A stretch of DNA of 64,000 nucleotides from Nemopilema nomurai (lineage: Eukaryota; Cnidaria; Scyphozoa; Rhizostomeae; Rhizostomatidae). Location: positions 992,001-1,056,000 of the forward strand of contig ML133499.1 in assembly GCA_003864495.1 (NCBI GenBank), read 5' to 3'. Below the pieces are notes generated by a model, which searched no databases, had not been told where the DNA came from, and worked only from the letters and a program-made list of their open reading frames with translations. Below, in pieces: positions 20,776 through 52,755 of the stretch; the first letter of the stretch is position 1, and every line of letters starts with the position of its first letter. Made by a program: the position numbers and the translations under genes.

Positions 20776-21484
20776 TAGAACAGTACAAATGTGTTAGTGC
20801 ATTGCATCATCCTCTCTATTTATAGCGTACCTAGCTCAAAATCTATTTCTTAGTAACTATTAGATCTGTAAATGGTTTGAAATTATCTGACAATTAAGTT
20901 CGACAAATCCAAGACAAATGATAAACAGCAATTGCTTTGAAACTCTCTAAATAATAGCCTTCACGGCTTGCAGTTGAAGAAATTGGACTGGACATGTGAT
21001 CATTTCCAGCACCTGTGTCTCTCAAATATGTTTTTCAGATTTCCGTTTTCGTGTGCAAAGTTAAGCTTGTTTATTTTCCATAACCTGAGTTTTAAACTGT
21101 AGTTCTTTATTAGTTGAAAATTCATGTTTAATTTATTAAACTTTTGATTAGGAATGAGTCAAATTCTTTTGAGCAAGAATGAAATTGGTTCTGATTCAAT
21201 TTGTCCACAGATTTGTTGAAAAGTACCCTTGGTGTTTAAACTGTTTAAATGTGTTTAACTTCCAATTGTTATAAGCCTTTTGCTGTGCAGGCACTGATTA
21301 ATATAAGCACTGGTTAAGATTGGTTCTGTTATTTGACGTTGCAGCTTATAGAAGACAAGTGCTTTGAATTTATATCTTCTTCTGGCCTAAGCAAAAGCTG
21401 ATCAAGGTACTGTTTTGTGCAGGATTTATCATCTTCGAGGAGTAATTGCCGGATCTAAATTGTGTGTGAGTGCAATATTCGAAG
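20776..21484. other. Upstream region of GPCR 5
   Basis: AT-rich with no recognised elements. It presumably carries the promoter of the receptor at 21485. Confidence 0.4.
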
Positions 21485-24205: not shown

Positions 24206-24519
24206 ACATCAATTTTTGCCAGTTCTTTATTGCATAATGTAAATAACTATTCTCAACTTGCTTCAAGTTTCAAGCCTGATGTGAACTTTATTTACATGAG
24301 ATGAATTTTCCCATGAAAGGAAGCTTCGCCGAGATTTGAATGTTTAATTTTGGCTGGTAGAATTTCTAGCGAAAGCTCCATGTTGTTATTAAAAATTATT
24401 TTAATCTTAAATATCAGTTGAAAGGACGTGCGATTCAATAGCCAGAAATACTAGATGAAATGCTTTTTAATGTCACAAAATGCTTCTTTTGCATTGGAAA
24501 ATGCGTTTGAATTTTTGTA

Positions 24520-26660: not shown

Positions 26661-28894
26661 TCTTCGCATTTATCCGCCAATTCGTGGCAAAAAGCTCACT
26701 TCAAACGAACAAGTTTATCTCGTGTTTACTAGGCATAACACAACTGTTGTCAGTGCCTAATGCCACGCAGCCTCTTGTGCTGCCAGCTAATCGCATTTAA
26801 CATGACACGAAGAAAAACAACTTACAATTACCCTTAAAACTGCTGGCGACGATGCAACTAACAGCAATACGGACAGAAGTTCGCGAGTCCTGAACTGTTT
26901 TATTTAGATTGAATCTTCAGATTTATCTTTAGATTCGGCTTTCGGTGCATCATAATTACTTTTTACCGTGAGAAGTAATTGTTTTTCCACCAGTTTGTGC
27001 AAATCATCAAATCCCGGAAAGCGTCTTTTAGGACTTTATCGTGCTAGTAGATGGAAATGAACTACAAAACAGATGTTCCTAGTCTCAAATCATCGCATCC
27101 ATCTGTTGTAAGAATTGTCATTGTGAGCCGTGACTGATCCGAAAAGAAAAGAATGTTATGAAAACACCCATAGGTAGAGGCTAGAATGTCTCACCTAAAA
27201 CTCGAATTTCGCTGTATATTAAATAAGCAAGTTGCATTCAAAATAAGGATTGTCTTCTTATACTCTTTCGGCGGTCGTTTGGTTTTGAAAAATTGACAAA
27301 TGTCTAAACTGATGATTCTATTTGTTGCTATGTCTTGGCTTGAGTATATGTATATAATTGAATAATGCATAATACATAAATATATACCTGCTTATCGTAG
27401 CCATAGCCGTATGTTTATAGAGAATACAGTACTGTTTTGAATAGAATTCAAATCCATTCTGCTAATGTGGTAGGATTCCAAAATATTTGTGGTTCGGGCG
27501 ATGCAAGTCAGCTTTAATTAAAAAACTTTCTTTGGATTCTTTGTGCTGCAAGCCAGTTTTGAATGTATCATAGTTATTGAATATATAGAAGGCCTAAAAT
27601 TGTCGCAGCTAGAATGAAAAGAGGTCAATTGGTCGTAGAACTGACATAAGAACGTTGGATCATGGAAGAACCTAAAGTAGTCAATTTAGTGACTTGGGAT
27701 CCACAATACTGTAAAAAGATTTTTTAAGGCTCCATCCCCCTTTCCAATAGATAGTCCTTCATAAGACCCGTTGCTGCTAATACAACTTATCTATCACTAA
27801 TACCCCTAATTCATCGGGGGTAGCTGAAAAATCTTTATGAGATCTTCATGGAAGCTACGGAGCTTGAAATTCATAATTGGCACAGCTCATTAGAGAAAAA
27901 ACACCAAGCGGAATGTAGAATTTATGCATATGGAACAAAAGTATAATTGGTTGAGCAAATGAAATAATGCTTTTTAAGTCATATAGTAATAAGGAATCCT
28001 GCCTGTTTAAAATGTTACATAGAGAATAAGCCATTTTAGCTCGACTTTTGGATATGAAAGTCTTGAAGATTCATATTCTTGTCCTGATCCTTCTTTATGA
28101 AATCTTTAGAGATCCTACAAAACTTTTGCTTTGATTATTTTCTTAAATAGATTCAGTAGCAAGTTAGTAGATATAAATGAAACTGTTTAAAATTTATATT
28201 GTTTAATAGATCGAATCAATGGGAGTAGAAGCCTTTAAAGAATGAATACCGTAAAGTCTTGGCGAAATAGTTTTGGAATGGCTTCATCCACCATAAATTG
28301 CATCCTTGTTTCATTTTATTTTATTTCTTAGTGCGTATCAATGGCTGGTACAAAATGATCTGATGAAGCATAATCAAACTTAATTTTTTTTATGAAGTAT
28401 AATATCCATTATTGTTGCACTGACTTTCTCAGTTCGTGACTTGTGCTTCTAGAAAGTGGTTGTTAATTTCCTTGAAACGAAATGAGGCCACCCTTCCCAC
28501 CAACTATAACAAGTGTTTCCGTTTCTGTATAACTGCATTGGTTCTTTGCTATACATAACACCTTTTGCAAGAATTAATGCTCTATTTCTCTCTTTGTATC
28601 AAATAAAGTGCCATTTCTATGTTATTCTCATTCAAGGATGATCTTACATAATCTTTGCTTGTTTGGCAATTCATTTTACCACTTACCATACCCAGATGTA
28701 TTGCAACTGCATGCATAACACGGGGAAGCGAATCTAAATATTTAATGTCTTTCATTTGTGTATGCATACCAGGTGCTTTTTCTCCGCACGAACTTCTTTA
28801 TACGACAGAATGCTTTCATTAGCTGGAGATCTAGTTTAGAGTTAGATGCAACTCTGCAATCATAGTACAACTTTGAGTAGAAAGGACCACTGCT
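26661..28894. other. AT-rich non-coding sequence upstream of GPCR 6
   Basis: 2.2 kb with only chance frames. No repeat family, RNA gene or transposon end recognised. Confidence 0.45.
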
Positions 28895-29842
28895 ATGGAA
28901 ATCCACTGCAGCTTTTACGGGCTTGTGATCAGAAACGAGACGTCTTTCAAGGGGAACATGCAGGCCTGTGCCATTTCCAACTTGGCTCTGACAATCCCAA
29001 CCTTCCTGGTAAATATGACATTAATCGTGGCTATTCTTACGTCCAATGAGCGCAAAAAGCCGTGCCAGAAAATGCTTCTCAATTTAGCCTTCGCCGACTC
29101 TTTAACCGGTCTTACGAGCATGCCGTTCCATTTTGTAGAGTTCCGCCTGATCGCCGCCCTAAAAGACCCTTGCAATTTCTCCATCTTCGCCATACCACTC
29201 GGGTATGCAGTCGGTATAGCTTCGTTTCTCACCATCACAATCATAGCCATGGAACGGTACATGAAGATCTTCTACCCGTACTTTTATTATGCACGATTCA
29301 ACTCGTCCGCTATTGCAATCTACCTGTCCCTGATATGGGTCATATCTTCAGTCTGTGTCATCCCTACAGCAGTTACCCGAAACGCCCGTCACCTCAATGT
29401 TATTGTCTTGTTCATCGCTGCATTCGGAACATCGATAAACATCTTTTGCTATATGCGAATACTGTTCCTTGCACGAAGGACTCGTAGACAGATACACGCC
29501 GAGGAGACCCGATTTGGCGTGTCAGCTGCACTCAAGAAGGACCGTGACCTGATTTTTATCGGTGGATTGATCATCGCTTCTCTTTCCGTGTGCTACGCTC
29601 CTATTATTGTGAGCAACTTGATGCGTCTATTGGATGTTCGTTGTAAGGCTTGGGACTATGCCTTGTGCTGGGAATGGACGTTTGCAATGGGGAATTCACT
29701 CATCAATCCGCTGATATCCTGCGTCTTCAACCCGGTTATAAGGACGAAAGCAAAGGCCATGTGGTCAAGGAGAACTAACCGCAATCCTTCCCACTTCGAC
29801 AGAAGCGTGAACACTCTTCATGTTGTCTCATTTAGAAAGTAA
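28895..29842 (+). CDS. Class A orphan GPCR 6
   Basis: A complete single-exon frame of 315 codons from ATG at 28895. Features are N-terminal Cys5, sequon Asn14 (RNETS), NLAFAD with Asp68, Cys93, AMERY (Glu120-Arg-Tyr), loop 3 RRTRRQIHAEETRFG, CYAP at about 233-236, CWEW, and NSLINPLISC with Asn271-Pro. The C-tail is longer than in the others (about 35 residues after TM7), with Ser and Thr residues that could be kinase sites. Loop 2 has no Cys. By pattern it is closest to GPCR 7: both have a Gly-Thr-Ser turn in TM5 (AAFGTSINIFCY, AVIGTSANVYCY). Ligand unknown. Confidence 0.95.
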   Translation: MEIHCSFYGLVIRNETSFKGNMQACAISNLALTIPTFLVNMTLIVAILTSNERKKPCQKMLLNLAFADSLTGLTSMPFHFVEFRLIAALKDPCNFSIFAIPLGYAVGIASFLTITIIAMERYMKIFYPYFYYARFNSSAIAIYLSLIWVISSVCVIPTAVTRNARHLNVIVLFIAAFGTSINIFCYMRILFLARRTRRQIHAEETRFGVSAALKKDRDLIFIGGLIIASLSVCYAPIIVSNLMRLLDVRCKAWDYALCWEWTFAMGNSLINPLISCVFNPVIRTKAKAMWSRRTNRNPSHFDRSVNTLHVVSFRK

Positions 29843-30689: not shown

Positions 30690-31705
30690 TCACCCACTCG
30701 TGAGCTCATTCATTCACTCACTCATTCATCCACTCACTCATTCATCATTCACTAACACACTTACCCACTCACTCACTAACTAACCCACCCTCTTACTAAC
30801 TCATTCACTCGTTCAGTCATTCTCTCGTCAGTTCACTCACAACTTACTCACTAACGATTCACATCACTCTCTTACTCACTCTGTTCCTCACACATTCACT
30901 TTCTCCCACACTCTCATCCACTCGCTCACTCACTCCCTCACCCACTCACTCACTCCCTCACTCACTCACTCCCTCACCCACCCACTCGCTCACTCCCTCA
31001 CTCACTCCCTCACCCACTCACTCCTCACTCACTCACTCTCACTCCACCCACCCACTCGCTCACTCCCTCACTCACTCCCTCACCCACTCACTCACTCACT
31101 CCCTCACCCACTCACTCCCTCACTCACTCACTCCCTCACTCCCTCACCCACCCACTCTCTCACTCACTCCCTCACCCACTCACTCCCTCACTCACTCCCT
31201 CACTCACTCCCTCACCCACCCACTCGCTCACTCCCTCACTCACTCCCTCACCCACTCACTCCCTCACTCACTCACTCCCTCACTCACTCACTCACTCACT
31301 CCCTCACTCACCTACTCACTCACTCACTCACTCCCTCACTCACTCACTCACTCCCTCACCCACCCACTCGCTCACTCCCTCACTCACTCACTCCCTCACC
31401 CACTCACTCACTCACTCACTCCCTCATTCACTCACTCCCTCACTCACTCACTCACTCCCTCGTTCACTCACTCACTCACTCCCTCACTCACTCACTCCCT
31501 CATTCACTCACTCCCTCACTCACTCACTCACTCCCTCGTCCACTCACTCACTTACTCACTCACTCACTCACTCACTCCCTCATTCACTCACTCCCTCACT
31601 CACTCACTCACTCCCTCGTTCACTCACTCACTCCCTCACTCACTCACTCACTCCCTCATTCACTCACTCCCTCACTCACTCACTCACTCCTTCACTCACT
31701 AACAA
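30690..31705. repeat. 1-kb (ACTC)n microsatellite-like array
   Basis: Almost pure CACT/CCCT tetranucleotide DNA with a compound pattern (CACTCACTCCCTCACCCACT and CACTCGCTCACTCCCTCACT). The edges at 30690-30900 are more degenerate. Strong strand asymmetry: the + strand has almost no G. Confidence 0.96.
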
Positions 31706-36180: not shown

Positions 36181-36791
36181 GCATCTGTAGTCAATCAGTT
36201 GCTCTGTACAATTAAAACTTGTCCAACTGTGTGCATTTTAAATTCGCTTTGCAATATTCTCCACAATTCCAAAAGCACTCGGCGTACATATCAGGGGTCG
36301 TGAGCTCGAGTCTTGCTCGGGCGGTTTCTCTCCGCAGTCTCTATGATAATTCCATAATTGTATAAGATCACTCTTCAAACAATGTACATTGGTAGTCAAT
36401 ATTTGCGTCTCTTGCAATTGAACTGAGTTCAAGCAACGCCCACTGTCGCTTCCTGTGCGGGTTTTGAGCTTGCGTGCTTGCCTTTTATGCTAATTTGTCA
36501 TTGGTATGCAGCATAAAACGACACAAGTAGCATACTCTTTAGCTTGTTCGTAATGTTGCAAGTAGATAAACAGCTCTTTTGTTTTGCCCCTTGTTGCTTC
36601 ACACAACCTGTTAATAGTGTATTGGTCGTCATGGGAAATTGAACAAGCAAGGCCATTGCTGATTGCGTTTTTTGCAAACAGTAGCATATTCATAAGGAAG
36701 CATTTCTTGAACGCCAGTCTTTTACACGTCTGATTACGGCTTTGTTTGCGAGAGACGAATTAAAGATAGCTTTGCTGCTACGAATAACAGG
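36181..36791. other. Upstream region of GPCR 7
   Basis: No repeats or RNA genes recognised. It presumably contains the promoter. Confidence 0.4.
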
Positions 36792-37727
36792 ATGGTGCCA
36801 ACTTGTAGCCAATGGGGTATCGAGGCATGGAACATATCCACCTTTATGACCAGCAATCGCGTTTGTGCCATTTTCAATGCCAGTTTAGCGCTGCCAACGA
36901 TACTGCTGAACTTCCTTGTCATGGCTGCGATCCTTACATCGAACTTGAAAGCTGAGCCGTGCTACCAGCTGCTGTTGAACCTCGCCTCCACTGACTTACT
37001 TGCCGGTTTATTTTTGATGCCTAATAACGTTATCATGTTCGAGCGGATTGCGGAGGGCAGAGACCCCTGCGAATTCGCCATCTACACTATCCCCTTTGGA
37101 TTTCTCCTTGCGTTCGCGTCATTTTTCGCAATAACGATGATTGCCGTGGAGAGATACATTTGCGTTTTTCATCCGTATTTTCAGAGATCAAGCATCAATG
37201 CGAAAACAATCAAAATCGCTGTCTTGTGTTCGTGGGTTGTGTCGGCTTGTTTTGTGACACCCTTGTTCATCCCAGGCTCCTCTCCTGCGCTAGAACTATT
37301 GTCTCTATTTGTCGCAGTTATTGGCACATCTGCAAATGTATACTGCTATCTTAAAATACTTCTGCAAGCGAGGGCAGTTCGTCTTCAAATAGTCCAAGAC
37401 GCAGCGCGGTTCTCTCAACGACGAATCGCCTCGAAGGACAAGAATCTTCTGTTTGTGGGTGGTATGATTGTAGTCTCCCTGTCCATTTGCTACAGTCTTG
37501 TCGTAGCCAACAACTTGTTGGATGTCTTGGGAATAGACGACCGGACACTACGCTATTTTAAATGTTGGGAGTGGACCCTTGTGGCCGGTAATTCGCTTAT
37601 AAACCCGGTAATATCTTGTGTATTCAATCCACCGCTGAGACGAGTGATTGTCAAATTGATAAAATGCAGGTCGCAAAATAGGATCGCCTTAGAAATGATT
37701 AACAGTAGAGACCAAACAATAACATGA
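36792..37727 (+). CDS. Class A orphan GPCR 7
   Basis: A complete single-exon frame of 311 codons from ATG at 36792. Features are N-terminal Cys5, sequon Asn14 (WNIST), NLASTD with Asp68, Cys93, AVERY (Glu120-Arg-Tyr), loop 3 RAVRLQIVQDAARFSQRR, KDKNLLFVGGMIVVSLS, CYSL in TM6 (the proline of CWxP is lost), CWEW, and NSLINPVISC with Asn271-Pro. The tail of about 35 residues resembles that of GPCR 6 in length. Loop 2 has no Cys. Ligand unknown; GPCR 6 is its likely sister gene. Confidence 0.94.
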   Translation: MVPTCSQWGIEAWNISTFMTSNRVCAIFNASLALPTILLNFLVMAAILTSNLKAEPCYQLLLNLASTDLLAGLFLMPNNVIMFERIAEGRDPCEFAIYTIPFGFLLAFASFFAITMIAVERYICVFHPYFQRSSINAKTIKIAVLCSWVVSACFVTPLFIPGSSPALELLSLFVAVIGTSANVYCYLKILLQARAVRLQIVQDAARFSQRRIASKDKNLLFVGGMIVVSLSICYSLVVANNLLDVLGIDDRTLRYFKCWEWTLVAGNSLINPVISCVFNPPLRRVIVKLIKCRSQNRIALEMINSRDQTIT

Positions 37728-40391: not shown

Positions 40392-41309
40392 TCACGCCAC
40401 AACTGTGGTTATCGATTGTCTTTTGTCTCGTCTCCAAAACCTCTTAACCGAAGTTCTTACACTTGTCAAGCGGTAAAACTTAAAAATCGGATTGATTAAA
40501 GAAGTCAAAGTTGCCAAGGTCCATGCCCAGTATGTTAAATACCCTATCAGTCGCTTATTGTTACGATTCGTTACGGCACTCAAGCTAGCCACGACTATTA
40601 TCGGGCAAAAGCAAACAACTGTCGAAACCAGGAGAAGTGCGGCACATATTACGCTGCTTTTGTCTCCAGTTGCGATACTGTTGCGCTGGCTGTTTGGCGT
40701 AACCCCTCGAATTTGTCTTTTGTGCCTCTGTATCAATCGGTATATATTCCCATAGCAAAAGCAATAGATCGCTAAAACAATTGCGCTCAGGAAGATTACG
40801 AACACGTCGAACGTTACCATATCAGCGTTCAGCGTTACGCGTAGCGTCGGGTATAGCGGTGTAGCCCATATGGCTAACAGCACTGTGTAGATCAGTGCCT
40901 TGCATTGCATTCTCTGGTGCTTGAATGGATGGCAGAATAAGAAGTAGCTGTCAATAGCAAGAACGGCTAGAGTTGTTACTGAGACAGCTCCGACTGTGAG
41001 GGACACGGGGGTAGTAAACTTAGTTATAAAGCAGGGGTCCTTTGCCAGGTAAATCATTAGAAACTGGGTGGCTGCCATTGGACTCGCGAAGCAACCCATT
41101 AGCAGATCCGCCATTACTAAGTTTGCGAGCAACGAACCTGTTGTTGTTGTTGTCGTCTTTTTAAAGTCAGATGTGACAACGATGAAGAGGTTGAGACAAA
41201 TTGTCGGTGGGGTTTTCACAATGTTTATTATTATGCAGGCAAGAATGTTTGCGTCCATTGATGCTGTTTTTTCGTAGAAGAGACCAAAGTGATCACATGA
41301 GATGTTCAT
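40392..41309 (-). CDS. Divergent class A GPCR 8 (lacks the DRY/ERY arginine)
   Basis: A single-exon frame of 305 codons from ATG at 41309; a longer reading from a CTG at 41330 is not needed. It keeps the family outline: N-terminal sequon and Cys (MNISCDHFGL), LANLVMAD in TM2, DPC before TM3, CFCP in TM6, YWAWT before TM7 and SLINPIF. Three changes set it apart. The TM3 end reads AIDSYFLFCHP, so Arg3.50 is Ser. TM7 reads NPIFKFYRL rather than NPxISC. Intracellular loop 1 has six Thr in a row. Either it signals unusually, perhaps constitutively or as a non-signalling partner, or it is an early pseudogene, but the frame is fully open. Ligand unknown. Confidence 0.85.
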   Translation of the reverse strand: MNISCDHFGLFYEKTASMDANILACIIINIVKTPPTICLNLFIVVTSDFKKTTTTTTGSLLANLVMADLLMGCFASPMAATQFLMIYLAKDPCFITKFTTPVSLTVGAVSVTTLAVLAIDSYFLFCHPFKHQRMQCKALIYTVLLAIWATPLYPTLRVTLNADMVTFDVFVIFLSAIVLAIYCFCYGNIYRLIQRHKRQIRGVTPNSQRNSIATGDKSSVICAALLLVSTVVCFCPIIVVASLSAVTNRNNKRLIGYLTYWAWTLATLTSLINPIFKFYRLTSVRTSVKRFWRRDKRQSITTVVA

Positions 41310-42625
41310 TTTGTGTTCTTTATACAGCAACTGACAGGTCTATAGTTGCCAAGTATCTCAGTTTTCCGGCTTTTGGCAAGAAATCACTCGAATCTCTTCA
41401 ATCAATTATCTCCTATTCGTGCATAGCAATAGTCCTGAACTCAAATACTTCTGCTGTGAACAATATGTCTGCTAGCAAAAGCCTTTTTTCCTGTAGCAAC
41501 CACATGCAAGGGTGGCACAATCGTTAAATCCAAATGTCGATCATAGTCCAAACATTCTAGGATTTTGCAGATCGTCAGAGGTAACTACCATGTTTCTTGC
41601 GGTTAATCATTCCAAGCTTCCACCTGCAATTCAAAGATGATTTACCAGTATTCAAATTAAGCAGACATTGCACGAGTCAGACCTGTTTCCCTATGACATT
41701 GCTCTGTTATATCCGAGGAAGTTGTCCGCTGTTATATCCAAGGAAGTTGATCTCTTATGCTTCCTGCTTTCTCGATGTCCTGCTTTCTCGATGTCCTGCT
41801 TTCTTGTTTCGCTTTTGAATAACCTAGAGCTACAGCATCAACAACAACCCCGTTGCTCCATTAACTGAAGAGTATTTGCTTTCAATAATGCATAATCTCT
41901 GTTTGCTCATCAACCATGTTATCAACAGAGTTTTATCCTTAAGCATATCTATTTGTGATTCAGTCGTCTTGTGTTTTGCAGCAAATTAGGATCACTCGTT
42001 CAATCCAGACATTGAAAATGATCAATGATTACCATAAGTCGCCTTGCTTGCTATCCTTGTTTAATCCGAAGATTGTAGTCGTTTCTCTAATCAATTTTGC
42101 CCATACAATTTGTTGCTTGTCATCAAATAGCAATCCGTCTATTTGAACATCTGTAGAAACAGTTTTGCGCTATTTTTCTATCGATGGCTTCCCATCAATT
42201 GATTAAACACGGAAAGGGTTATCGATGTTTTTTCATTTGTTGACGAAAGAGCAAATGCAGGCATTTCTAACAGTAGTGTAGCACGACATTCTTAACGGCC
42301 TATCCTCGTTTAACCATGCTTTGTTACAAGAGCGGAGTTGGCTGGTGGGACAAATAAGTTGTGAAATGCACACCAGCGACTAATAAACAAGCCAAAATGT
42401 AGATGACGTCAAGCCAAACCTCCAGTGAGAAAAGTAAATGTATTGGGAAAAAAGTCGCACGAAATCCGTCGTTAACACTCGCAGTGAGCCTTCACTTGGA
42501 TTTCTCGCAAAATATTTATCTGGAAAAAAGTTGAAACGAATGTCAATTTTTTTATTTTCGCTGAGTCCTGACTCATGCCTCCAAACGTTACATTCCAACG
42601 TCGTGAGGTCACTAAAATTTGGGGA
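41310..42625. other. Unique non-coding sequence left of the mobile dimer
   Basis: Only chance frames. No repeats, RNA genes or transposon ends recognised. Confidence 0.45.
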
Positions 42626-42628: not shown

Positions 42629-42696
<68 letters not shown>

Positions 42697-42704
42697 CGGT
42701 GATG

Positions 42705-42770
<66 letters not shown>
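42627..42770. repeat. (GAT)n microsatellite, left flank and integration target
   Basis: About 48 trinucleotides of GAT with two GGT/CGGT interruptions. It ends abruptly at ...GATGATGATG followed by ACCATTTCCCG, the left end of the element. The GAT tract resumes at 52714 at the far right end of the dimer, so the two parts were presumably one microsatellite before insertion. Confidence 0.95.
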
Positions 42771-42771
<1 letters not shown>

Positions 42772-42830
42772 CCATTTCCCGAAACTCGCGTTCCTTCGTA
42801 CCGGTTTTACCCTCGGGGTTCCTCCTCTCC

Positions 42831-42860
42831 TATAAATGCCAATCGCAAATCCTGTCAGTT
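42831..42860 (+). promoter_or_regulatory. Core promoter of rep, copy 1
   Basis: TATAAA at 42831-42836 is followed 26 bases later by an initiator-like TCAGTT (A at 42857). The rep ATG follows at 42882, giving a 5' leader of about 25 bases. The same arrangement occurs in copy 2 at 48189. Confidence 0.6.
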
Positions 42861-42881
42861 TGTTGGGGGAGTAAGAGTACG

Positions 42882-43885
42882 ATGACGATGGCAGTAAGAG
42901 CAAGAGGAGCGAAGGCGAAGTGCTGGACATTCACATATACGTGCTGTCCTGAAAATGCGAAGGAGCTGCTTGAGCAACGGCGCGTAGACTTCGCCTACTT
43001 GATTGCGTCCAAAGACACCAGCGACGCAGTTTACAGGAACATGCTGCGTGGCTATGCCATTTTCAGCTGCCAGAAAAGAAAGCACCAGGTGGAGGAGATA
43101 TTAGGCATCGAAGGGAGGCCAGAGAGACTGGAGGTGGCAATAGCCAAGGGCTCGTCCAGGCACCACATGGCTCAGGTCAAGTGCGGGGAGTCCTATTTTG
43201 AAATCGGCGAAAACTCCCTGAAAAGGAAGGACAAAAGCCAATTGGAGGTAATGCGCGACAGGAGGATGCAGGACGCAACGGAAGAGGCAATGGTGGAGGA
43301 ATTTGGGGAATCCTGGCTCCACAGTCAATCGACCGTCGATCGGAGCATCGAGAGACAGAGGACGGAGGTGGCAAAACAGCAGATGCTGGAACGCTTCCAG
43401 AATGCAATCTGCGACAGTGGCAGGAAACTGTCCTCCGGTTGGTTAGAACACAGGGGCCAAGAAGAATAACGTTCGTGGTGGACGAAGAGGGCAATACAGG
43501 GAAGACATTTCTTGCCAAGTACATAATGGCCACGAAAAACGCCTTGTACTTGACGTCGACGTCTTTGCGAGACATTGCCTATGCTTGGCAGGGCGAACAA
43601 TACGTTGTTTTCGATGTGAGTAGAGAAAAGTCAACCAAATTAAATTACTCCACTCTAGAAACAATAAAAAACGGAGTCGTATTCAGCACTAAATACAAGT
43701 CAACTACCAAAGTTTTCCCCATCCCAATTATAATCTGCATGATGAACTGTAAGCCCTATGCCAAAATGATGTCAAATGACAGGTACCACATCGTAGCTCT
43801 AAATAAATCGCAGGACCCACTCGATACCACAATCTCATTAACCATAGAGGACTTTAGATACGCCCAAGAGCCCGAAGACAAATGA
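42882..43885 (+). pseudogene. CRESS-type Rep (HUH-like + SF3 helicase), copy 1, one frameshift
   Basis: The start is chosen at ATG 42882, just after the TATA/initiator pair; the frame reading back into the GAT repeat as poly-Met is spurious. Near the N-terminus, CWTFTYTCCPEN resembles RCR motif I, and MLRGYAIF sits where motif II (His-x-Gln-Gly-Tyr) is expected but lacks the His. The C-terminal part has an SF3 Walker A (EEGNTGKTFLAKY), Walker B (YVVFDVSR), a motif C Asn (CMMNCKP) and an SNDRY arginine-finger region. A missing C at about 43405, relative to copy 2, shifts the frame. The first part therefore ends at 43469, and the helicase part (readable from 43439) is in another frame. Length would fit a Rep of about 334 codons. 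The break lies in a short C run and could be an assembly error. Confidence 0.85.
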
Positions 43886-43954
43886 ATACTTTGCGAAAAA
43901 GTTGTCGTCATTGTTGTTCTTCCTTGATAGGGTTTCGAGTGGGCGAGAAATGCT

Positions 43955-44953
43955 TTGCACTCACTTCAGATATGGGTCTCCGAGCCTCGCATTCGTCCAA
44001 GTGGGCCTCCAATCTCGTTGTGAAGTACACGACGATCAACGTACTTAGTTAAAGATGTGTGCCTGGGCTGGGCTTCTGATCACAAACTTTGCACTCACTT
44101 CAGATATGGGTCTCCGAGCCTCGCATTCGTCCAAGTGGGCCTCCAATCTCGTTGTGAAGTACACGACGATCAACGTACTTAGTTAAAGATGTGTGCCTGG
44201 GCTGGGCTTCTGATCACAAACTTTGCACTCACTTCAGATATGGGTCTCCGAGCCTCGCATTCGTCCAAGTGGGCCTCCAATCTCGTTGTGAAGTACACGA
44301 CAGATCAACGTACTTAGTTATAGATGTGTGCCTGGGCTGGGCTTCTGATCACAAACTTTGCACTCACTCAGATATGGGTCTCCGAGCCTCGCATTCGTCC
44401 AAGTGGGCCTCCAATCTCGTTGTGAAGTACACGACGATCAACGTACTTAGTTAAAGATGTGTGCCTGGGCTGGGCTTCTGATCACAAACTTTGCACTCAC
44501 TTCAGATATGGGTCTCCGAGCCTCGCATTCGTCCAAGTGGGCCTCCAATCTCGTTGTGAAGTACACGACAGATCAACGTACTTAGTTATAGATGTGTGCC
44601 TGGGCTGGGCTTCTGATCACAAACTTTGCACTCACCTCAGATATGGGTCTCCGAGCCTCGCATTCGTCCAAGTGGGCCTCCAATCTCGTTGTGAAGTACA
44701 CGACAGATCAACGTACTTAGTTTAGATGTGTGCCTGGGCTGGGCTTCTGATCACAAACTTTGCACTCACTTCAGATATGGGTCTCCGAGCCTCGCATTCG
44801 TCCAAGTGGGCCTCCAATCTCGTTGTGAAGTACACGACAGATCAACGTACTTAGTTATAGATGTGTGCCTGGGCTGGGCTTCTGATCACAAACTTTGCAC
44901 TCACTTCAGATATGGGTCTCCGAGCCTCGCATTCGTCCAAGTGGGCCTCCAAG
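43955..44953. repeat. Repeat block A in copy 1 (about 7.5 x 134 bp)
   Basis: Units start at 43955, 44089, 44223, 44358, 44491 and on to about 44895, each with GATATGGGTCTCCGAGCCTC and GTGTGCCTGGGCTGGGCTTC. Unit length varies between 133 and 135, mostly through ACGACGATC versus ACGACAGATC. It lies just after the rep stop, between the converging 3' ends. Open frames across it are broken in this copy. Confidence 0.95.
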
Positions 44954-44959
44954 CCCGCC

Positions 44960-45650
44960 ACCATTGAAGGAAGTATAGCAAATTCATACGAGAACGAGAG
45001 CCCAGGTACTCGAACGAAAGTTTTAGAGAGAAGCCCAGCCCAACAGTTTTCAATGCTTTTCTATAGGCTATACAGTACACGAAACCGAGATTAGAAGCCC
45101 AGCAAATCCATACGAGGACGAGAGCCCAGATACTCGAACGAAAGTTTTAGAGAGAAGCCCAGCCCAACAGTTTTCAATGCTTTTCTATAGGCTATACAGT
45201 ACACGAAACCGAGATTAGAAGCCCAGCAAATCCATACGAGGACGAGAGCCCAGATACTCGAACGAAAGTTTTAGAGAGAAGCCCAGCCCAACAGTTTTCA
45301 ATGCTTTTCTATAGGCTATACAGTACACGAAACCGAGATTAGAAGCCCAGCAAATCCATACGAGGACGAGAGCCCAGATACTCGAACGAAAGTTTTAGAG
45401 AGAAGCCCAGCCCAACAGTTTTCAATGCTTTTCTATAGGCTATACAGTACACGAAACCGAGATTAGAAGCCCAGCAAATCCATACGAGGACGAGAGCCCA
45501 GATACTCGAACGAAAGTTTTAGAGAGAAGCCCAGCCCAACAGTTTGCAATGCTTTTCTATAGGCTATACAGTACACGAAACCGAGATTAGAAGCCCAGCA
45601 AATCCATACGAGGACGAGAGCCCAGATACGCGAACGAAAGTTTTATAGAA
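44960..45650. repeat. Repeat block B in copy 1 (about 5.5 x 124 bp)
   Basis: The 124-base unit (starts at about 44971, 45095, 45219, 45343, 45467 and 45591) contains CATACGAGGACGAGAGCCCA, AAAGTTTTAGAGAGAAGCCC and CTATAGGCTATACAGTACAC. It follows block A directly, before the 3' end of the recombinase gene. Units are almost identical, so the array is young or homogenised. Confidence 0.95.
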
Positions 45651-45732
45651 TGGCCTAGTCCCAACAAATTGTGAGATTGAAGAAGAAAACACATGTAAAT
45701 CAAATACGAATTGTGTATTAGATATCTATGTA

Positions 45733-47520
45733 TTACATATTAATCTGGGAAAGAGCTTCCCCACATACTTTTTCATATACGCAACGAAAGTGATTACTTC
45801 GACAGCGTCTTAACAAAGAGTTACGAGCTCTACCCTCTGCGAAGCACAAGCTCTGGTCAGAAATGATTTTCCCCCATTTGCCATAACCATGTTTGTTTAT
45901 TCCCTTTATCAAATTCAAGTCTTCCGTCTCGGTGAATGGTGTTGTGCGCTTTTGTTTGCAAAGTTGACTGTTACTCGCTAGAGATCCATCGCCCGTTGAT
46001 GTCAGCTGGCAGTGACTGTCTGTCTTCTCTAAAGGCTCGGTTCTGCTCTGTGTTGTAATGCAAATGTCCGCCTCCGATTCACTGACTTCCACGCCCGTGG
46101 AAGCGCTACTGACAAGTTTTTTCAAAGAGCTGTCTAGCTGTTCTCCAGATTCTCCCCTCAGCTTCTTGATGCAGTGATTCCCCTTTTCGGCAACGTCTCG
46201 CGAACGCTTTTTGCGATAATGAATCCTTGCAACATTTGAAGTGTGTTTTTGATCTTGCGATATCAGCTCTTGTTCTTCAAGGGATAGAGCATCAGAACTC
46301 TCAGTTTCGATTATTTGTCGGTAACGTGTTGGGTGCACATGCTTGCCAATAGCTTCATAGACGAGCAAGCACATTGCTTGACTCAGCTTCGTAAACTGGG
46401 TGCCATTGCGCGTCAGTAGCAGATATTCGCATTTTGGATGAAACTTCGGCCTGACGTGTCTCGCATAGTCGTCCAAAACATGCATGCAGACGTCATCTAT
46501 GACCATGGAATCAAAGCCATACTTGTCAGCTGTTTTGAATTTCTTCTGGTCGACATATCCGCCATTTTTCGATGCACTGCGTAGCATGCGAATTGTCAGG
46601 AACTGGTATGTCATAGGGCGACAACCCTTGACGCGTAAGAAGAGAAACGTCGTTATAAATCTCGTTGAAAAAGTCAGATCGGACGGCGAGACTTCTGCCG
46701 AACACTCCCGGCATCTGGCCACTATTTTCTGGTATCGTCCCATGTGAAACGGTATGACCTTTTGCAAGTCTTGCAGTGATGCCCAGTGTCCCTTTCTCTC
46801 CAACGTATCAACATCCAACTCTTCGGTCCACTGCACACGCATCTTACGAGCAATGCACTTTCTTGCGCGCTTCAGGAACACCTCTGCAACACTGAAGTTT
46901 GATAAGATAGAAGCGGACACTCCTTGAAACTTTCGGTACTCCATTGTTTCCAACAAAGCGTTGATGTAGCTAACACTTCCAGCGTGTCCAATAGATTTTT
47001 CATCCTCCAAATGTTGTAAAAAAGCTGACAAGCATGCCATTGAAGCCAAGTAGTAGTCAATTTTAGCCCCCTCTATCCCTTCCAGCATACTGTGATCGTC
47101 CTGAGAGTACTGAATGAACTTGAGGGCACGAGAGCAAATCTGATTCGCGTGTGCTTTTGTGCGACCACCACCAGTAGAGCTGCACATCCATTTGGCAAAC
47201 GTCTCACTGAAAATGACCTCGTCGGGAATGATATTCGAACTACTAATAACATCGTTCGATTCGTCGATCTTCTTGTCACACGTGTTTTGCGGCGCAGCAC
47301 CATCATCAATGACATCCTTCGGGTATTCGTCAAAATAAAAGAACCAAGGATGCGAATTCGTAACGTGCTTTCTGCAACCTCTTTGACTACGGAAGCCTTC
47401 ATGTTCGCAGTCACGTATAGGGCACTGGAATATTCCGTGCACGGTAGCCACTAACATCAGCCTTTTCTTCATCTTTGCCGCTCCAGGGACGCCTTTCCAT
47501 CGCAATACCATCGAAGACAT
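45733..47520 (-). CDS. Tyrosine recombinase with zinc finger and TRF-like Myb domain, copy 1
   Basis: An intact 595-codon frame from ATG at 47520. A C2H2-like finger (Cys33, Cys38, His52, His57) is followed by a helical core-binding region (about 105-235). A tyrosine-recombinase catalytic domain follows: Arg301 (GCRPMTY), a Lys in QKKFKT (327-330), His396-Pro-Thr-Arg399, His426, and Tyr435 in ARIHYRK, nine residues after His426 as in phage integrases. After a Ser-rich linker, residues 526-575 form a Myb/SANT domain of TRF type (HGYGKWGKI). The enzyme should cut and rejoin DNA through a 3'-phosphotyrosine, so it probably integrates and excises the element. It converges on rep. Closest known class: Crypton-type YR transposases, though I do not recall one paired with Rep. 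Unlike rep, both copies are intact. Confidence 0.85.
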   Translation of the reverse strand: MSSMVLRWKGVPGAAKMKKRLMLVATVHGIFQCPIRDCEHEGFRSQRGCRKHVTNSHPWFFYFDEYPKDVIDDGAAPQNTCDKKIDESNDVISSSNIIPDEVIFSETFAKWMCSSTGGGRTKAHANQICSRALKFIQYSQDDHSMLEGIEGAKIDYYLASMACLSAFLQHLEDEKSIGHAGSVSYINALLETMEYRKFQGVSASILSNFSVAEVFLKRARKCIARKMRVQWTEELDVDTLERKGHWASLQDLQKVIPFHMGRYQKIVARCRECSAEVSPSDLTFSTRFITTFLFLRVKGCRPMTYQFLTIRMLRSASKNGGYVDQKKFKTADKYGFDSMVIDDVCMHVLDDYARHVRPKFHPKCEYLLLTRNGTQFTKLSQAMCLLVYEAIGKHVHPTRYRQIIETESSDALSLEEQELISQDQKHTSNVARIHYRKKRSRDVAEKGNHCIKKLRGESGEQLDSSLKKLVSSASTGVEVSESEADICITTQSRTEPLEKTDSHCQLTSTGDGSLASNSQLCKQKRTTPFTETEDLNLIKGINKHGYGKWGKIISDQSLCFAEGRARNSLLRRCRSNHFRCVYEKVCGEALSQINM

Positions 47521-47557
47521 CTTCCCAGTTTGTTGTCAAGCTTAGAACTTGCAGCGC

Positions 47558-47565
47558 TATAAATA
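47558..47565 (-). promoter_or_regulatory. TATA box of recombinase gene, copy 1
   Basis: On the minus strand the box reads TATTTATA, about 38-45 bases upstream of the ATG at 47520. The spacing resembles that of the rep promoter on the other side of the junction region. Confidence 0.55.
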
Positions 47566-47692
47566 GGCCAAAACTTCTCCGGGGACATAGGAACTCCGTG
47601 TTGCTTTTTCGCGTGGAAGCGTGATTAAGTAATACAAATGAGAAAGAAAATCGGCCCAAAGGTACTTAGCGCACGCAGAACGAAGGAACCTG

Positions 47693-47732
47693 GGAACGTG
47701 GGAACGTGGGAACGTGGGAACGTGGGAACGTA
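47693..47732. repeat. Five 8-bp iterons (GGAACGTG), copy 1
   Basis: GGAACGTG is repeated five times head to tail (last copy GGAACGTA), between the recombinase promoter and the right end of the unit. In a circularised unit this lies in the region between the two divergent promoters, where CRESS viruses carry Rep-binding iterons. The binding protein (Rep or the Myb domain) is inference. Confidence 0.7.
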
Positions 47733-48123
47733 TATTCAGATTCATATTGGAATGTATAGGAAAAGCGAGCGAACGGAGGCCCGCAGTTCCCAAAACGGCT
47801 CGTAAGCAGCATATGCTTATGATGAGATGCTCGCAACAAAAAGGCACAAAGGAACAAAGGGACAGTTCCCTTGGTCCAGAGGACCTTTCTTGGTACCGTT
47901 GTTCCTTTTAAAAGGACCTATGGAACATTGGCCTAATGCCAGCAATTTCTTACGTGTCCATTTTGGGCACCCTTAAGGGCATCTCTACCGGGGAGAAACA
48001 TCATATGGTTGCATTGGCATGGGGGACACCCGAGAATAACAAAGTGAGGCACAAAACATTCAGCACTTTTGAACAAACGAAAACACAAAGCTTCAATGAA
48101 TTGTCTCCAAATTTGGTAAATAC

Positions 48124-48129
48124 TGATGA
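48124..48129. other. Recombination core (attachment-like site) TGATGA at unit junction
   Basis: At the junction the right-end flank AATAC and the left-end flank CCATTT are separated only by TGATGA. The left end of copy 1 (GATGATGA then CCATTT) and the right end of copy 2 (AATAC then TGATGATG) share the same hexamer. This is the pattern expected for strand exchange between a circular attP-like site and a GAT-repeat attB-like site. Confidence 0.65.
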
Positions 48130-48188
48130 CCATTTCCCGAAACTCGCGTTCCTTCGTACCGGTTTTACCCTCGGGGTTCCTCCTCTCC

Positions 48189-48218
48189 TATAAATGCCAA
48201 TCGCAAATCCTGTCAGTT
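48189..48218 (+). promoter_or_regulatory. Core promoter of rep, copy 2
   Basis: TATAAA at 48189-48194 and TCAGTT (A at 48215), 51 and 25 bases before the ATG at 48240, the same as in copy 1. Confidence 0.6.
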
Positions 48219-48239
48219 TGTTGGGGGAGTAAGAGTACG

Positions 48240-49243
48240 ATGACGATGGCAGTAAGAGCAAGAGGAGCGAAGGCGAAGTGCTGGACATTCACATATACGT
48301 GCTGTCCTGAAAATGCGAAGGAGCTGCTTGAGCAACGGCGCGTAGACTTCGCCTACTTGATTGCGTCCAAAGTCACCAGCGACGCAGTTTACAGGAACAT
48401 GCTGCGTGGCTATGCCATTTTCAGCTGCCAGAAAAGAAAGCACCAGGTGGAGGAGATATTAGGCATCGAAGGGAGGCCAGAGAGACTGGAGGTGGCAATA
48501 GCCAAGGCTCGTCCAGGCACCACATGGCTCAGGTCAAGTGCGGGGAGTCCTATTTTGAAATCGGCGAAAACTCCCTGAAAAGGAAGGACAAAAGCCAATT
48601 GGAGGTAATGCGTGACAGGAGGATGCAGGACGCAACGGAAGAGGCAATGGTGGAGGAATTTGGGGAATCCTGGCTCCACAGTCAATCGACCGTCGATCGG
48701 AGCATCGAGAGACAGAGGACGGAGGTGGCAAAACAGCAGATGCTGGAACGCTTCCAGAATGCCAATCTGCGACAGTGGCAGGAAACTGTCCTCCGGTTGG
48801 TTAGAACACAGGGGCCAAGAAGAATAACGTTCGTGGTGGACGAAGAGGGCAATACAGGGAAGACATTTCTTGCCAAGTACATAATGGCCACGAAAAACGC
48901 CTTGTACTTGACGTCGACGTCTTTGCGAGACATTGCCTATGCTTGGCAGGGCGAACAATACGTTGTTTTCGATGTGAGTAGAGAAAAGTCAACCAAATTA
49001 AATTACTCCACTCTAGAAACAATAAAAAACGGAGTCGTATTCAGCACTAAATACAAGTCAACTACCAAAGTTTTCCCCATCCCAATTATAATCTGCATGA
49101 TGAACTGTAAGCCCTATGCCAAAATGATGTCAAATGACAGGTACCACATCGTAGCTCTAAATAAATCGCAGGACCCACTCGATACCACAATCTCATTAAC
49201 CATAGAGGACTTTAGATACGCCCAAGAGCCCGAAGACAAATGA
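48240..49243 (+). pseudogene. CRESS-type Rep, copy 2, one frameshift (different from copy 1)
   Basis: Same domains as copy 1. A run of two G at 48506-48507, where copy 1 has three at 43148-43150, shifts the frame between the HUH-like and helicase parts. The first frame ends at 48578. The second, open from 48524 to 49243, holds the linker and the whole SF3 helicase: Walker A EEGNTGKT, Walker B VVFDVSR, motif C MMNCKP, and SNDRY. In the motif III region the catalytic Tyr expected in YxxK is not apparent (AQVKCGESYFEIG). Each copy has a single, different one-base lesion, both in short homopolymers. This could be independent decay or sequencing error. Confidence 0.85.
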
Positions 49244-49312
49244 ATACTTTGCGAAAAAGTTGTCGTCATTGTTGTTCTTCCTTGATAGGGTTTCGAGTGG
49301 GCGAGAAATGCT

Positions 49313-49912
49313 TTGCACTCACTTCAGATATGGATCTCCGAGCCTCGCATTCGTCCAAGTGGGCCTCCAATCTCGTTGTGAAGTACACGACAGATCAACG
49401 TACTTAGTTATGGATGTGTGCCTGGGCTGGGCTTCTGATCACAAACTTTGCACTCACTTCAGATATGGGTCTCCGAGCCTCGCATTCGTCCAAGTGGGCC
49501 TCCAATCTCGTTGTGAAGTACACGACAGATCAACGTACTTAGTTATAGATGTGTGCCTGGGCTGGGCTTCTGATCACAAACTTTGCACTCACCTCAGATA
49601 TGGGTCTCCGAGCCTCGCATTCGTCCAAGTGGGCCTCCAATCTCGTTGTGAAGTACACGACAGATCAACGTACTTAGTTATAGATGTGTGCCTGGGCTGG
49701 GCTTCTGATCACAAACTTTGCACTCACTTCAGATATGGGTCTCCGAGCCTCGCATTCGTCCAAGTGGGCCTCCAATCTCGTTGTGAAGTACACGACAGAT
49801 CAACGTACTTAGTTATAGATGTGTGCCTGGGCTGGGCTTCTGATCACAAACTTTGCACTCACCTCAGATATGGGTCTCCGAGCCTCGCATTCGTCCAAGT
49901 GGGCCTCCAAGC
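49313..49912. repeat. Repeat block A in copy 2 (about 4.5 x 135 bp)
   Basis: Starts at 49313, 49448, 49583, 49718 and 49853, all 135 bp. The multiple of three keeps a frame open from 49260 through block A into block B to 50174 (304 codons). Confidence 0.93.
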
Positions 49913-49919
49913 CCGCACC

Positions 49920-50230
49920 ATTGAAGGAAGTATAGCAAATTCATACGAGGACGAGAGCCCAGGTACTCGAACGAAAGTTTTAGAGAGAAGCCCAGCCCAA
50001 CAGTTTTCAATGCTTTCTATAGGCTATACAGTACACGAAACCGAGATTAGAAGCCCAGCAAATCCATACGAGGACGAGAGCCCAGATACTCGAACGAAAG
50101 TTTTAGAGAGAAGCCCAGCCCAACAGTTTTCAATGCTTTTCTATAGGCTATACAGTACACGAAACCGAGATTAGAAGCCCAGCAAATCCATACGAGGACG
50201 AGAGCCCAGATACGCGAACGAAAGTTTTAT
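49920..50230. repeat. Repeat block B in copy 2 (about 2.5 x 124 bp)
   Basis: Same 124-bp unit as in copy 1, with fewer copies. The first unit has one base fewer in the CTTTCTATAG run. Confidence 0.93.
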
Positions 50231-50319
50231 AGAATGGCCTAGTCCAACAAATTGTGAGATTGAAGAAGAAAACACATGTAAATCAAATACGAAGACATTG
50301 TGTATTAGATATCTATGTA

Positions 50320-52107
50320 TTACATATTAATCTGGGAAAGAGCTTCCCCACATACTTTTTCATATACGCAACGAAAGTGATTACTTCGACAGCGTCTTAA
50401 CAAAGAGTTACGAGCTCTACCCTCTGCGAAGCACAAGCTCTGGTCAGAAATGATTTTCCCCCATTTGCCATAACCATGTTTGTTTATTCCCTTTATCAAA
50501 TTCAAGTCTTCCGTCTCGGTGAATGGTGTTGTGCGCTTTTGTTTGCAAAGTTGACTGTTACTCGCTAGAGATCCATCGCCCGTTGATGTCAGCTGGCAGT
50601 GACTGTCTGTCTTCTCTAAAGGCTCGGTTCTGCTCTGTGTTGTAATGCAAATGTCCGCCTCCGATTCACTGACTTCCACGCCCGTGGAAGCGCTACTGAC
50701 AAGTTTTTTCAAAGAGCTGTCTAGCTGTTCTCCAGATTCTCCCCTCAGCTTCTTGATGCAGTGATTCCCCTTTTCGGCAACGTCTCGCGAACGCTTTTTG
50801 CGATAATGAATCCTTGCAACATTTGAAGTGTGTTTTTGATCTTGCGATATCAGCTCTTGTTCTTCAAGGGATAGAGCATCAGAACTCTCAGTTTCGATTA
50901 TTTGTCGGTAACGTGTTGGGTGCACATGCTTGCCAATAGCTTCATAGACGAGCAAGCACATTGCTTGACTCAGCTTCGTAAACTGGGTGCCATTGCGCGT
51001 CAGTAGCAGATATTCGCATTTTGGATGAAACTTCGGCCTGACGTGTCTCGCATAGTCGTCCAAAACATGCATGCAGACGTCATCTATGACCATGGAATCA
51101 AAGCCATACTTGTCAGCTGTTTTGAATTTCTTCTGGTCGACATATCCGCCATTTTTCGATGCACTGCGTAGCATGCGAATTGTCAGGAACTGGTATGTCA
51201 TAGGGCGACAACCCTTGACGCGTAAGAAGAGAAACGTCGTTATAAATCTCGTTGAAAAAGTCAGATCGGACGGCGAGACTTCTGCCGAACACTCCCGGCA
51301 TCTGGCCACTATTTTCTGGTATCGTCCCATGTGAAACGGTATGACCTTTTGCAAGTCTTGCAGTGATGCCCAGTGTCCCTTTCTCTCCAACGTATCAACA
51401 TCCAACTCTTCGGTCCACTGCACACGCATCTTACGAGCAATGCACTTTCTTGCGCGCTTCAGGAACACCTCTGCAACACTGAAGTTTGATAAGATAGAAG
51501 CGGACACTCCTTGAAACTTTCGGTACTCCATTGTTTCCAACAAAGCGTTGATGTAGCTAACACTTCCAGCGTGTCCAATAGATTTTTCATCCTCCAAATG
51601 TTGTAAAAAAGCTGACAAGCATGCCATTGAAGCCAAGTTGTGGTCAATTTTAGCCCCCTCTATCCCTTCCAGCATACTGTGATCGTCCTGAGAGTACTGA
51701 ATGAACTTGAGGGCACGAGAGCAAATCTGATTCGCGTGTGCTTTTGTGCGACCACCACCAGTAGAGCTGCACATCCATTTGGCAAACGTCTCACTGAAAA
51801 TGACCTCGTCGGGAATGATATTCGAACTACTAATAACATCGTTCGATTCGTCGATCTTCTTGTCACACGTGTTTTGCGGCGCAGCACCATCATCAATGAC
51901 ATCCTTCGGGTATTCGTCAAAATAAAAGAACCAAGGATGCGAATTCGTAACGTGCTTTCTGCAACCTCTTTGACTACGGAAGCCTTCATGTTCGCAGTCA
52001 CGTATAGGGCACTGGAATATTCCGTGCACGGTAGCCACTAACATCAGCCTTTTCTTCATCTTTGCCGCTCCAGGGACGCCTTTCCATCGCAATACCATCG
52101 AAGACAT
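50320..52107 (-). CDS. Tyrosine recombinase with zinc finger and TRF-like Myb domain, copy 2
   Basis: An intact 595-codon frame, identical to copy 1 except residues 156-157 (His-Asn in place of Tyr-Tyr). All features stand: the Cys33/Cys38/His52/His57 finger, catalytic Arg301, His396-x-x-Arg399, His426 and Tyr435, and the Myb domain at 526-575. Preservation of a 1.8-kb frame in both copies argues for recent activity or for selection on this gene. The TATA-like box is at 52145-52152. Confidence 0.85.
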   Translation of the reverse strand: MSSMVLRWKGVPGAAKMKKRLMLVATVHGIFQCPIRDCEHEGFRSQRGCRKHVTNSHPWFFYFDEYPKDVIDDGAAPQNTCDKKIDESNDVISSSNIIPDEVIFSETFAKWMCSSTGGGRTKAHANQICSRALKFIQYSQDDHSMLEGIEGAKIDHNLASMACLSAFLQHLEDEKSIGHAGSVSYINALLETMEYRKFQGVSASILSNFSVAEVFLKRARKCIARKMRVQWTEELDVDTLERKGHWASLQDLQKVIPFHMGRYQKIVARCRECSAEVSPSDLTFSTRFITTFLFLRVKGCRPMTYQFLTIRMLRSASKNGGYVDQKKFKTADKYGFDSMVIDDVCMHVLDDYARHVRPKFHPKCEYLLLTRNGTQFTKLSQAMCLLVYEAIGKHVHPTRYRQIIETESSDALSLEEQELISQDQKHTSNVARIHYRKKRSRDVAEKGNHCIKKLRGESGEQLDSSLKKLVSSASTGVEVSESEADICITTQSRTEPLEKTDSHCQLTSTGDGSLASNSQLCKQKRTTPFTETEDLNLIKGINKHGYGKWGKIISDQSLCFAEGRARNSLLRRCRSNHFRCVYEKVCGEALSQINM

Positions 52108-52144
52108 CTTCCCAGTTTGTTGTCAAGCTTAGAACTTGCAGCGC

Positions 52145-52152
52145 TATAAATA
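52145..52152 (-). promoter_or_regulatory. TATA box of recombinase gene, copy 2
   Basis: TATTTATA on the minus strand, in the same position relative to the ATG (52107) as in copy 1. Confidence 0.55.
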
Positions 52153-52279
52153 GGCCAAAACTTCTCCGGGGACATAGGAACTCCGTGTTGCTTTTTCGCG
52201 TGGAAGCGTGATTAAGTAATACAAATGAGAAAGAAAATCGGCCCAAAGGTACTTAGCGCACGCAGAACGAAGGAACCTG

Positions 52280-52319
52280 GGAACGTGGGAACGTGGGAAC
52301 GTGGGAACGTGGGAACGTA
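52280..52319. repeat. Five 8-bp iterons (GGAACGTG), copy 2
   Basis: Same five-copy array as at 47693-47732, at the equivalent position. The same 14-bp palindrome follows at 52493-52506. Confidence 0.7.
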
Positions 52320-52713
52320 TATTCAGATTCATGTTGGAATGTATAGGAAAAGCGAGCGAACGGAGGCCCGCAGTTCCCAAAACGGCTCGTAAGCAGCATA
52401 TGCTTATGTTGATGAGATGCTCGCAACAAAAAGGCACAAAGGAACAAAGGGACAGTTCCCTTGGTCCAGAGGACCTTTCTTGGTACCGTTGTTCCTTTTA
52501 AAAGGACCTATGGAACATTGGCCTAATGCCAGCAATTTCTTACGTGTCCATTTTGGGCACCCTTAAGGGCATCTCTACCGGGGAGAAACATCATATGGTT
52601 GCATTGGCATGGGGGACACCCGAGAATAACAAAGTGAGGCACAAAACATTCAGCACTTTTGAACAAACGAAAACACAAAGCTTCAATGAATTGTCTCCAA
52701 ATTTGGTAAATAC

Positions 52714-52755
<42 letters not shown>

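Follow-up and report, generated by a model that had tools for sequence, protein, structure and literature searches.

The movement of tyrosine recombinase (YR) DNA transposons is usually regarded as conservative, and the means by which their copy number increases is an open question. Other eukaryotic transposons, the Helitrons and Replitrons, encode an HUH-fold protein and depend on active HUH chemistry. Copy number of the yeast 2-micron plasmid, with its FLP recombinase, is tied to a tyrosine recombinase and to replication as a circle, although this plasmid depends on initiators of the host and does not integrate as a rule. Here we describe an element of the scyphozoan Nemopilema nomurai in which a YR is paired with a replication protein (Rep) of the type encoded by circular Rep-encoding single-stranded (CRESS) DNA viruses; unlike Helitrons and Replitrons, this element combines degenerate HUH chemistry with a YR. 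Two copies lie in the stretch analyzed, 64,000 nucleotides of contig ML133499.1 (C133:992001-1056000), which is referred to as the window and whose own numbering is used for positions given without a contig. We interpret the element as a two-gene DNA transposon, and assign a probability of about 60% to the reading that a circle excised by its YR would be replicated by its nickase-less Rep, acting in the manner of T antigen or E1, and then reinserted.

DNA YR elements have been described, in the passages of PMC4157794 cited here, as possessing a YR domain only, whereas a Rep is found inside the ends of the present element at 13 independent loci. The Cryptons resemble it in their YR-only recombination chemistry, in having no inverted repeats and in their proposed circle intermediate, and the short direct repeats that serve as recombination substrate at the ends of fungal Cryptons (PMC3212892, in the passages cited) may be compared with the TGA at both ends here. 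The element differs from Cryptons in its second gene, which is of viral ancestry, and in the C2H2 finger and Myb domain of its YR; animal Cryptons are reported in the same passages to be without a C-terminal domain or terminal repeats. In a comparison made by description and Pfam searches, the YR active site and direct-repeat ends of Cryptons were thus both present, but the YR was not of the DUF3504 (animal) or GCR1_C (fungal) type; no match to either family was seen at E <= 1, a result with which a distant relation is compatible. A Crypton YR was also absent among the structure-comparison matches listed, to which no weight is attached. The nearest precedent we found for a Rep with a transposase is the geminivirus-like transposon of the truffle Tuber melanosporum, likewise a repeated element with a Rep-like gene; the truffle element is bounded by terminal inverted repeats of 37 bp, unlike the present one, and contains other open reading frames (ORFs) called transposases, and the passage that describes it mentions no tyrosine recombinase (PMC3198968). 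Among viruses, polinton-like viruses are noted to carry YRs (PMC11071296 and PMC12220804, in part). No eukaryotic transposon combining Rep and YR was listed in our searches of open papers; an earlier description in subscription papers or Repbase is possible.

Copies of the Element, Their Ends and Their Target

The two units in the window are arranged head to tail inside a (GAT)n microsatellite, and in each of them the Rep gene and the YR gene are convergent, with two tandem arrays between them. The features are as follows.

42629..42771, no strand: (GAT)n microsatellite, left-side target (Tandem Repeats Finder; flanks below)
42772..48123, no strand: unit 1, 5352 bp, beginning directly 3' of the microsatellite (junctions; identical ends at other loci)
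42888..43885, + strand: Rep gene of unit 1, N-terminal and helicase parts in two frames (ORFs, alignment, motif table); a further in-frame ATG at 42882 and TATAAA within the 118 bases upstream
43953..44952, + strand: Rep-side tandem array of unit 1, about 134 bp, 7.4 copies; 14-mer TGGGCTGGGCTTCT on + in 7 copies
44977..45649, - strand: YR-side tandem array of unit 1, 124 bp, 5.4 copies; TGGGCTGGGCTTCT on - in 5 copies
45733..47520, - strand: 595-aa YR of unit 1, with C2H2-type finger, core-binding and catalytic domains and C-terminal Myb domain
47692..47731, + strand: five tandem GGGAACGT 8-mers of unit 1, candidate protein-binding repeats
47820..47935, no strand: hairpin-rich stretch of unit 1 towards its right end, a candidate for an origin or regulatory region (DNA folding z)
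48124..48129, no strand: TGATGA core between the units; matching junction at C76, TGACGA at C70/C61
48130..52713, no strand: unit 2, 4584 bp (junctions)
48246..49243, + strand: Rep gene of unit 2; its frame is broken once, by a single-base change near 48506 (ORFs)
49311..49910, + strand: Rep-side array of unit 2, about 135 bp, 4.4 copies; TGGGCTGGGCTTCT on + in 4 copies
49934..50233, - strand: YR-side array of unit 2, 124 bp, 2.4 copies; TGGGCTGGGCTTCT on - in 2 copies
50320..52107, - strand: 595-aa YR of unit 2, ORF uninterrupted
52279..52318, + strand: five tandem GGGAACGT 8-mers of unit 2 (Tandem Repeats Finder)
52714..52755, no strand: (TGA)n microsatellite, right-side target, following directly upon unit 2 (Tandem Repeats Finder; flanks below)

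The TGATGA core is the sole sequence separating the two units. Outside the arrays they differ by 2 mismatches over 995 aligned bases in Rep, 2 over 1788 in the YR and 1 over 603 in the right part, with none in the 118 bases before Rep, and the difference in their lengths is mainly due to array copy number.

The assembly comprises 212.9 Mb in 226 contigs, in which matches, grouped by place, give at least 26 places each for the YR and for Rep, these counts being lower bounds. A convergent Rep was present less than 2 kb away at 17 of the 26 YR places (C133 twice, C127, C70 at 4.49 Mb, C76 at 743 kb, 747 kb and 190 kb, C191, C104, C115, C145, C36, C9, C137, C99, C143, and C105). Pairing by nearest Rep gives 15 links, as the Rep closest to the YR belongs to the neighboring unit in two tandem loci; the convergent partners at C133 1035232-1035882 and C76 751086-751820, both within 2 kb, bring the number to 17. 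At two further YR places, C70 (1.89 Mb) and C61, the beginning of another tandem unit is found in lieu of a convergent Rep. The right flank is identical in C191 and C9, and the flanks of C115 and C99 are nearly identical with a shift of one base; as a haplotype or segmental origin of such copies is probable, the linked loci were counted as 13 independent ones. The first-pass annotation of this DNA had proposed a mobile element pairing the two genes, and had named homologues always lying apart as the contrary outcome; the copies with common ends and the 17 convergent pairs bear the proposal out. That the two are chance neighbors, a fragment of an endogenous Rep next to a YR repeat, with later duplication, would accord with the commonness of endogenous CRESS Reps in animals (PMC3198968, in part) and with the 9 of 26 Rep places without a YR partner, but for this genome it is refuted by the 17 linked pairs, by the differing flanks of the 13 independent loci, by the position of Rep, which begins at a distance of 118 bp from the left end in copies retaining that end, and by the constraint upon Rep described below. 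There are 8 places at which the right end (300 bp) shows 100% identity, which indicates that the spread of the element was recent. Internally deleted copies are also present (L025, L026, L028, and L031). One further region (L032, C128:11500-21000) contains a whole Rep frame and 19 rows of matches to the 134-bp repeat, with no YR match in the region.

The ends of the element are exact. Over 17 loci including the window, the left flank ends in TGA in 16/16 cases and the right flank begins with TGATGA in 17/17; ends that were deleted (left at C104, C137, and C105; right at C127) were left unscored. When internal junctions, overlapping views and duplicate loci were removed, and C76 (173 kb) and C86 added, the independent flanks gave 12/12 and 13/13, respectively. 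Each outer flank scored has between 5 and 20 TGA on the left and between 3 and 20 on the right, in comparison to a mean of 1.3 for background 60-mers of the window. Insertion is thus at TGA and nearly always in TGA-rich repeats, the exception being C76 (747 kb), where the element lies in a minisatellite in which long runs of TGA are missing. Head-to-tail junctions were observed in three independent cases, all with a 6-bp spacer, which is TGATGA in C133 and C76 and TGACGA in C70/C61. The simplest reading of these sequences is that recombination takes place within the TGA beside CCATTT, while one further TGA belongs to the right end. TGA at both ends could also be left by DDE-type transposition with a 3-bp target duplication, the two genes being cargo. 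However, no terminal inverted repeat was found at the element ends, no DDE gene is present among the ORFs scanned, and the head-to-tail copies have in common a single 6-bp core, so that this explanation is barely credible. In contrast, exact ends together with the three junctions fit the footprint expected of YR circle integration at TGA-rich repeats, in agreement with the circle integration that the first annotation had read from the presence of a YR.

The Recombinase and the Rep-Derived Protein

The YR frame is uninterrupted in both units of the window. The complete active site proposed for it earlier (Arg301, Lys329, His396, Arg399, His426, and Tyr435) corresponds, with an offset of 5, to R306, K334, H401, R404, H431, and Y440 of P0001. 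Five of these six residues are identical in 75/75 aligned family members and H401 is present in 73/75 (Asn in the other two), the 75 being those aligned out of 120 relatives listed and 772 found, cnidarian ones among them. Structure comparison of the predicted protein recovered the fold of tyrosine recombinases, although the Foldseek result by itself was weak (best E 0.0071). Against the window YR, a pooled ratio of nonsynonymous to synonymous differences (pN/pS) of 0.39 was obtained over 13 of 18 fetched regions, dead copies included, by using the best matched stretch of each region and leaving out L019, L025, L028, L032, and L034. An identical frame break near codon 105 is present in four copies (L018, L019, L020, and L021; C70, C76 twice, and C191) at three target sites, which suggests that these copies are either mobilized in trans by a YR supplied from an intact copy or expressed by frameshifting, without favoring one of these. 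No relatives were detected in the viral contigs searched with the YR, Rep or the junction, nor in the prokaryote genome contigs searched with the YR.

The Rep is homologous in sequence to CRESS-type Reps, its nearest named match being Aretevirus marisnaco (Ouroboviridae); the CRESS Rep fold was seen by structure comparison of the homologue P0123. Like the Reps of CRESS DNA viruses (Cressdnaviricota) it consists of an HUH-fold domain and a superfamily 3 (SF3) helicase, and the helicase motifs are present with their catalytic residues kept. The most fitting interpretation is that a YR transposon captured it from CRESS viruses. The earlier statement that each unit encodes such a Rep holds for the motifs but not for the reading frames: neither copy in the window is in one frame, as each has one frame change, at differing places, while an uninterrupted frame of 334 aa is found in 7 of 18 regions fetched elsewhere in the same genome.

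Unlike the viral proteins, the Rep family has lost its nickase residues. The HUH nickase His and Gln are lost in all five aligned family members and present in 16/16 other CRESS-type relatives; the motif II His and the motif III Lys are likewise each missing in 5/5, and the clade to which the window Reps belong has Gln in place of the motif III Tyr. Two Rep relatives from contigs of 2175 and 1351 bases (P0125 and P0130) retain the motif III Tyr while the motif II His is gone, and in sequence they represent an intermediate state of nickase loss. The ssDNA or rolling-circle-like replication that had been deduced from the presence of a Rep is therefore not upheld. A rolling-circle element, whose Rep nicks and replicates ssDNA, would be in keeping with a CRESS-type Rep of HUH fold and with the motif III Tyr of three of the five family members, but given the missing residues, and as the CRESS nonanucleotide patterns tried were not present in unit 1 on either strand, it has only a small chance of being correct.

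The Rep has nevertheless remained under constraint. Over 21 pairs of the seven whole frames the pN/pS was 0.17, pairs which share history and hence are not 21 independent tests, and the choice of whole frames omits broken copies. The helicase is the most constrained part (0.14, as against 0.21 for the HUH domain and 0.22 for the linker), and by these values the nickase-less HUH domain is also constrained, which argues for a role in DNA binding. Such a combination of a nickase-less HUH-fold domain with an SF3 helicase is found in papillomavirus E1 and polyomavirus large T antigen, both of which were structure matches, and in which the function of the HUH-fold domain is origin binding. As the Rep of the element is closest in sequence to CRESS Reps, this likeness would be a functional one only.

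The remaining contents of the units were examined as well. Of the eight other ORFs scanned against Pfam none reached a family cut-off, sub-threshold matches being all on a repeat-array ORF, and searches of PHROGs and NCBIfam gave nothing useful. Unlike the DIRS, Ngaro and PAT retrotransposons, which also have YRs, no match to a reverse transcriptase was seen among the ORFs scanned, and no unassigned long ORF is present outside the arrays. On sequence, none of the ORFs examined resembled a capsid gene, and together with the lack of the nonanucleotide patterns tried this gives no support to the integrating CRESS-like virus lineage that had been suggested as one possibility. An integrated CRESS-like provirus that gained a recombinase would account for the Rep ancestry, and CRESS sequences adjoining host sequence have been noted in sea anemone data (PMC11071296, in part); the lack of a Pfam family at cut-off for the eight other ORFs scanned, the exact transposon-like ends and the fixed TGA target render it highly improbable.

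Candidate Cis Sites and the Proposed Replication Step

Several sequences within the units are candidate sites for Rep or YR. The 14-mer TGGGCTGGGCTTCT occurs 11 times on the + strand in the Rep-side arrays and seven times on the - strand in the YR-side arrays, and is absent from the rest of the window. Its sense is always that of the preceding gene, in arrays (43953-45649 and 49311-50233) that otherwise look unrelated, and when the bases of the two repeat units were shuffled, a shared word of this length arose in 0 of 3000 trials. It is a candidate 3' end signal or binding repeat; no poly(A) signals were found 3' of either gene in the stretches scanned. The five tandem GGGAACGT near the right end of each unit are likewise found nowhere else in the window, and the hairpin-rich stretch gave folding z scores of -2.58 on + and -2.44 on -. 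No signal was obtained for hairpins in the 134- and 124-bp repeats or for DNA folding at both unit ends, and the GGGAACGT run had a z of -1.16.

In our preferred reading, the excision product made by the YR would be a double-stranded circle with the joint AAATAC-TGA-TGA-CCATTT. At the stage after excision and before integration, the Rep-derived protein would bind element DNA through its nuclease-dead HUH-fold domain, and the SF3 helicase would unwind the circle, enabling host polymerases to copy it, much as with T antigen or E1 and without rolling-circle nicking; such nicking is disfavored because the nickase has been lost while the nickase-less domain stays constrained. The YR would then recombine the circle TGA beside CCATTT with a target TGA, so that the left junction reads target-TGA-CCATTT and the right junction AAATACTGA-TGA-target. 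Neither copy gain nor tandem multimers follow from conservative YR recombination by itself, and replication of the circle would explain both. Alternatively, in the same two-gene transposon the Rep may not be an initiator but a helper of the YR (in strand opening or synapsis) or a regulator, with copies gained through host replication timing. The loss of the nickase and the fact that no origin was identified are in accord with this, and a nuclease-dead DNA-binding helicase could fill other roles. However, the catalytic residues of the helicase are kept and it is the most constrained part, and the YR seems not to need Rep in general, as 772 relatives were found for the YR versus 36 for Rep and most YRs in the wider family are <=46% identical. 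Hence we regard a helper or regulator as rather unlikely, though deserving of attention.

A number of observations weigh against replication of a circle by the Rep. The motif III Tyr is still present in three of five family members and the fragment P0147 retains the motif II Gln, so the ancestral loss of the nickase may be partial. Both window Reps are broken by single-base changes (near 43405 in unit 1 and 48506 in unit 2), and among the genome matches the YR frame is whole in the two window copies only. Seven of the 26 YR places (C1, C2, C7, C56, C45, C136, and C85) have no Rep within 5 kb, although these are diverged or partial, and the Rep places without a convergent YR are, except for C128, fragments or decayed. 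An origin was not identified, the evidence for linkage is from one assembly, and the element is known from genome sequence, from which we infer the circle, its excision and replication, the multimers and their reinsertion. Separately, inverted arms around the junction core were considered and are not used as evidence, being not significant: in a fixed frame they have 8/14 matches, equalled by 1.3% of random places, and in a free frame 9/14, reached by about a quarter of 2000 random places.

In the remainder of the window there are eight intronless rhodopsin-type receptor frames, a gene cluster with the element inserted at its edge, and, outside the element, long arrays with strong strand skew.

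6630-7523, 14047-14952, 15602-16516, 18264-19163, 21470-22381, 28877-29839, 36711-37724, 40395-41339: receptor frames (7tm_1)
24505-26534 and 30705-31700: long arrays, 27-bp G-rich unit and CTCA

A more far-reaching form of the preferred reading, which we hold tentatively and at somewhat less than an even chance, is that the element may be a self-replicating, integrating episome, in which a CRESS Rep would have lost its nickase and become a T-antigen-like initiator independently of papillomaviruses and polyomaviruses, with a dsDNA circle, copy gain of its own and integration at TGA sites. If this is true, it would constitute a separate class of eukaryotic transposon. A YR element with a helicase-type initiator of its own would make the replicative circle step directly testable, and since TGA stands at all independent ends observed, this exact rule for the target allows a simple design of excision and integration assays. 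It would also provide another natural case of a Rep that does not nick but whose fold and helicase are under selection, which bears upon the origins of T antigen and E1.

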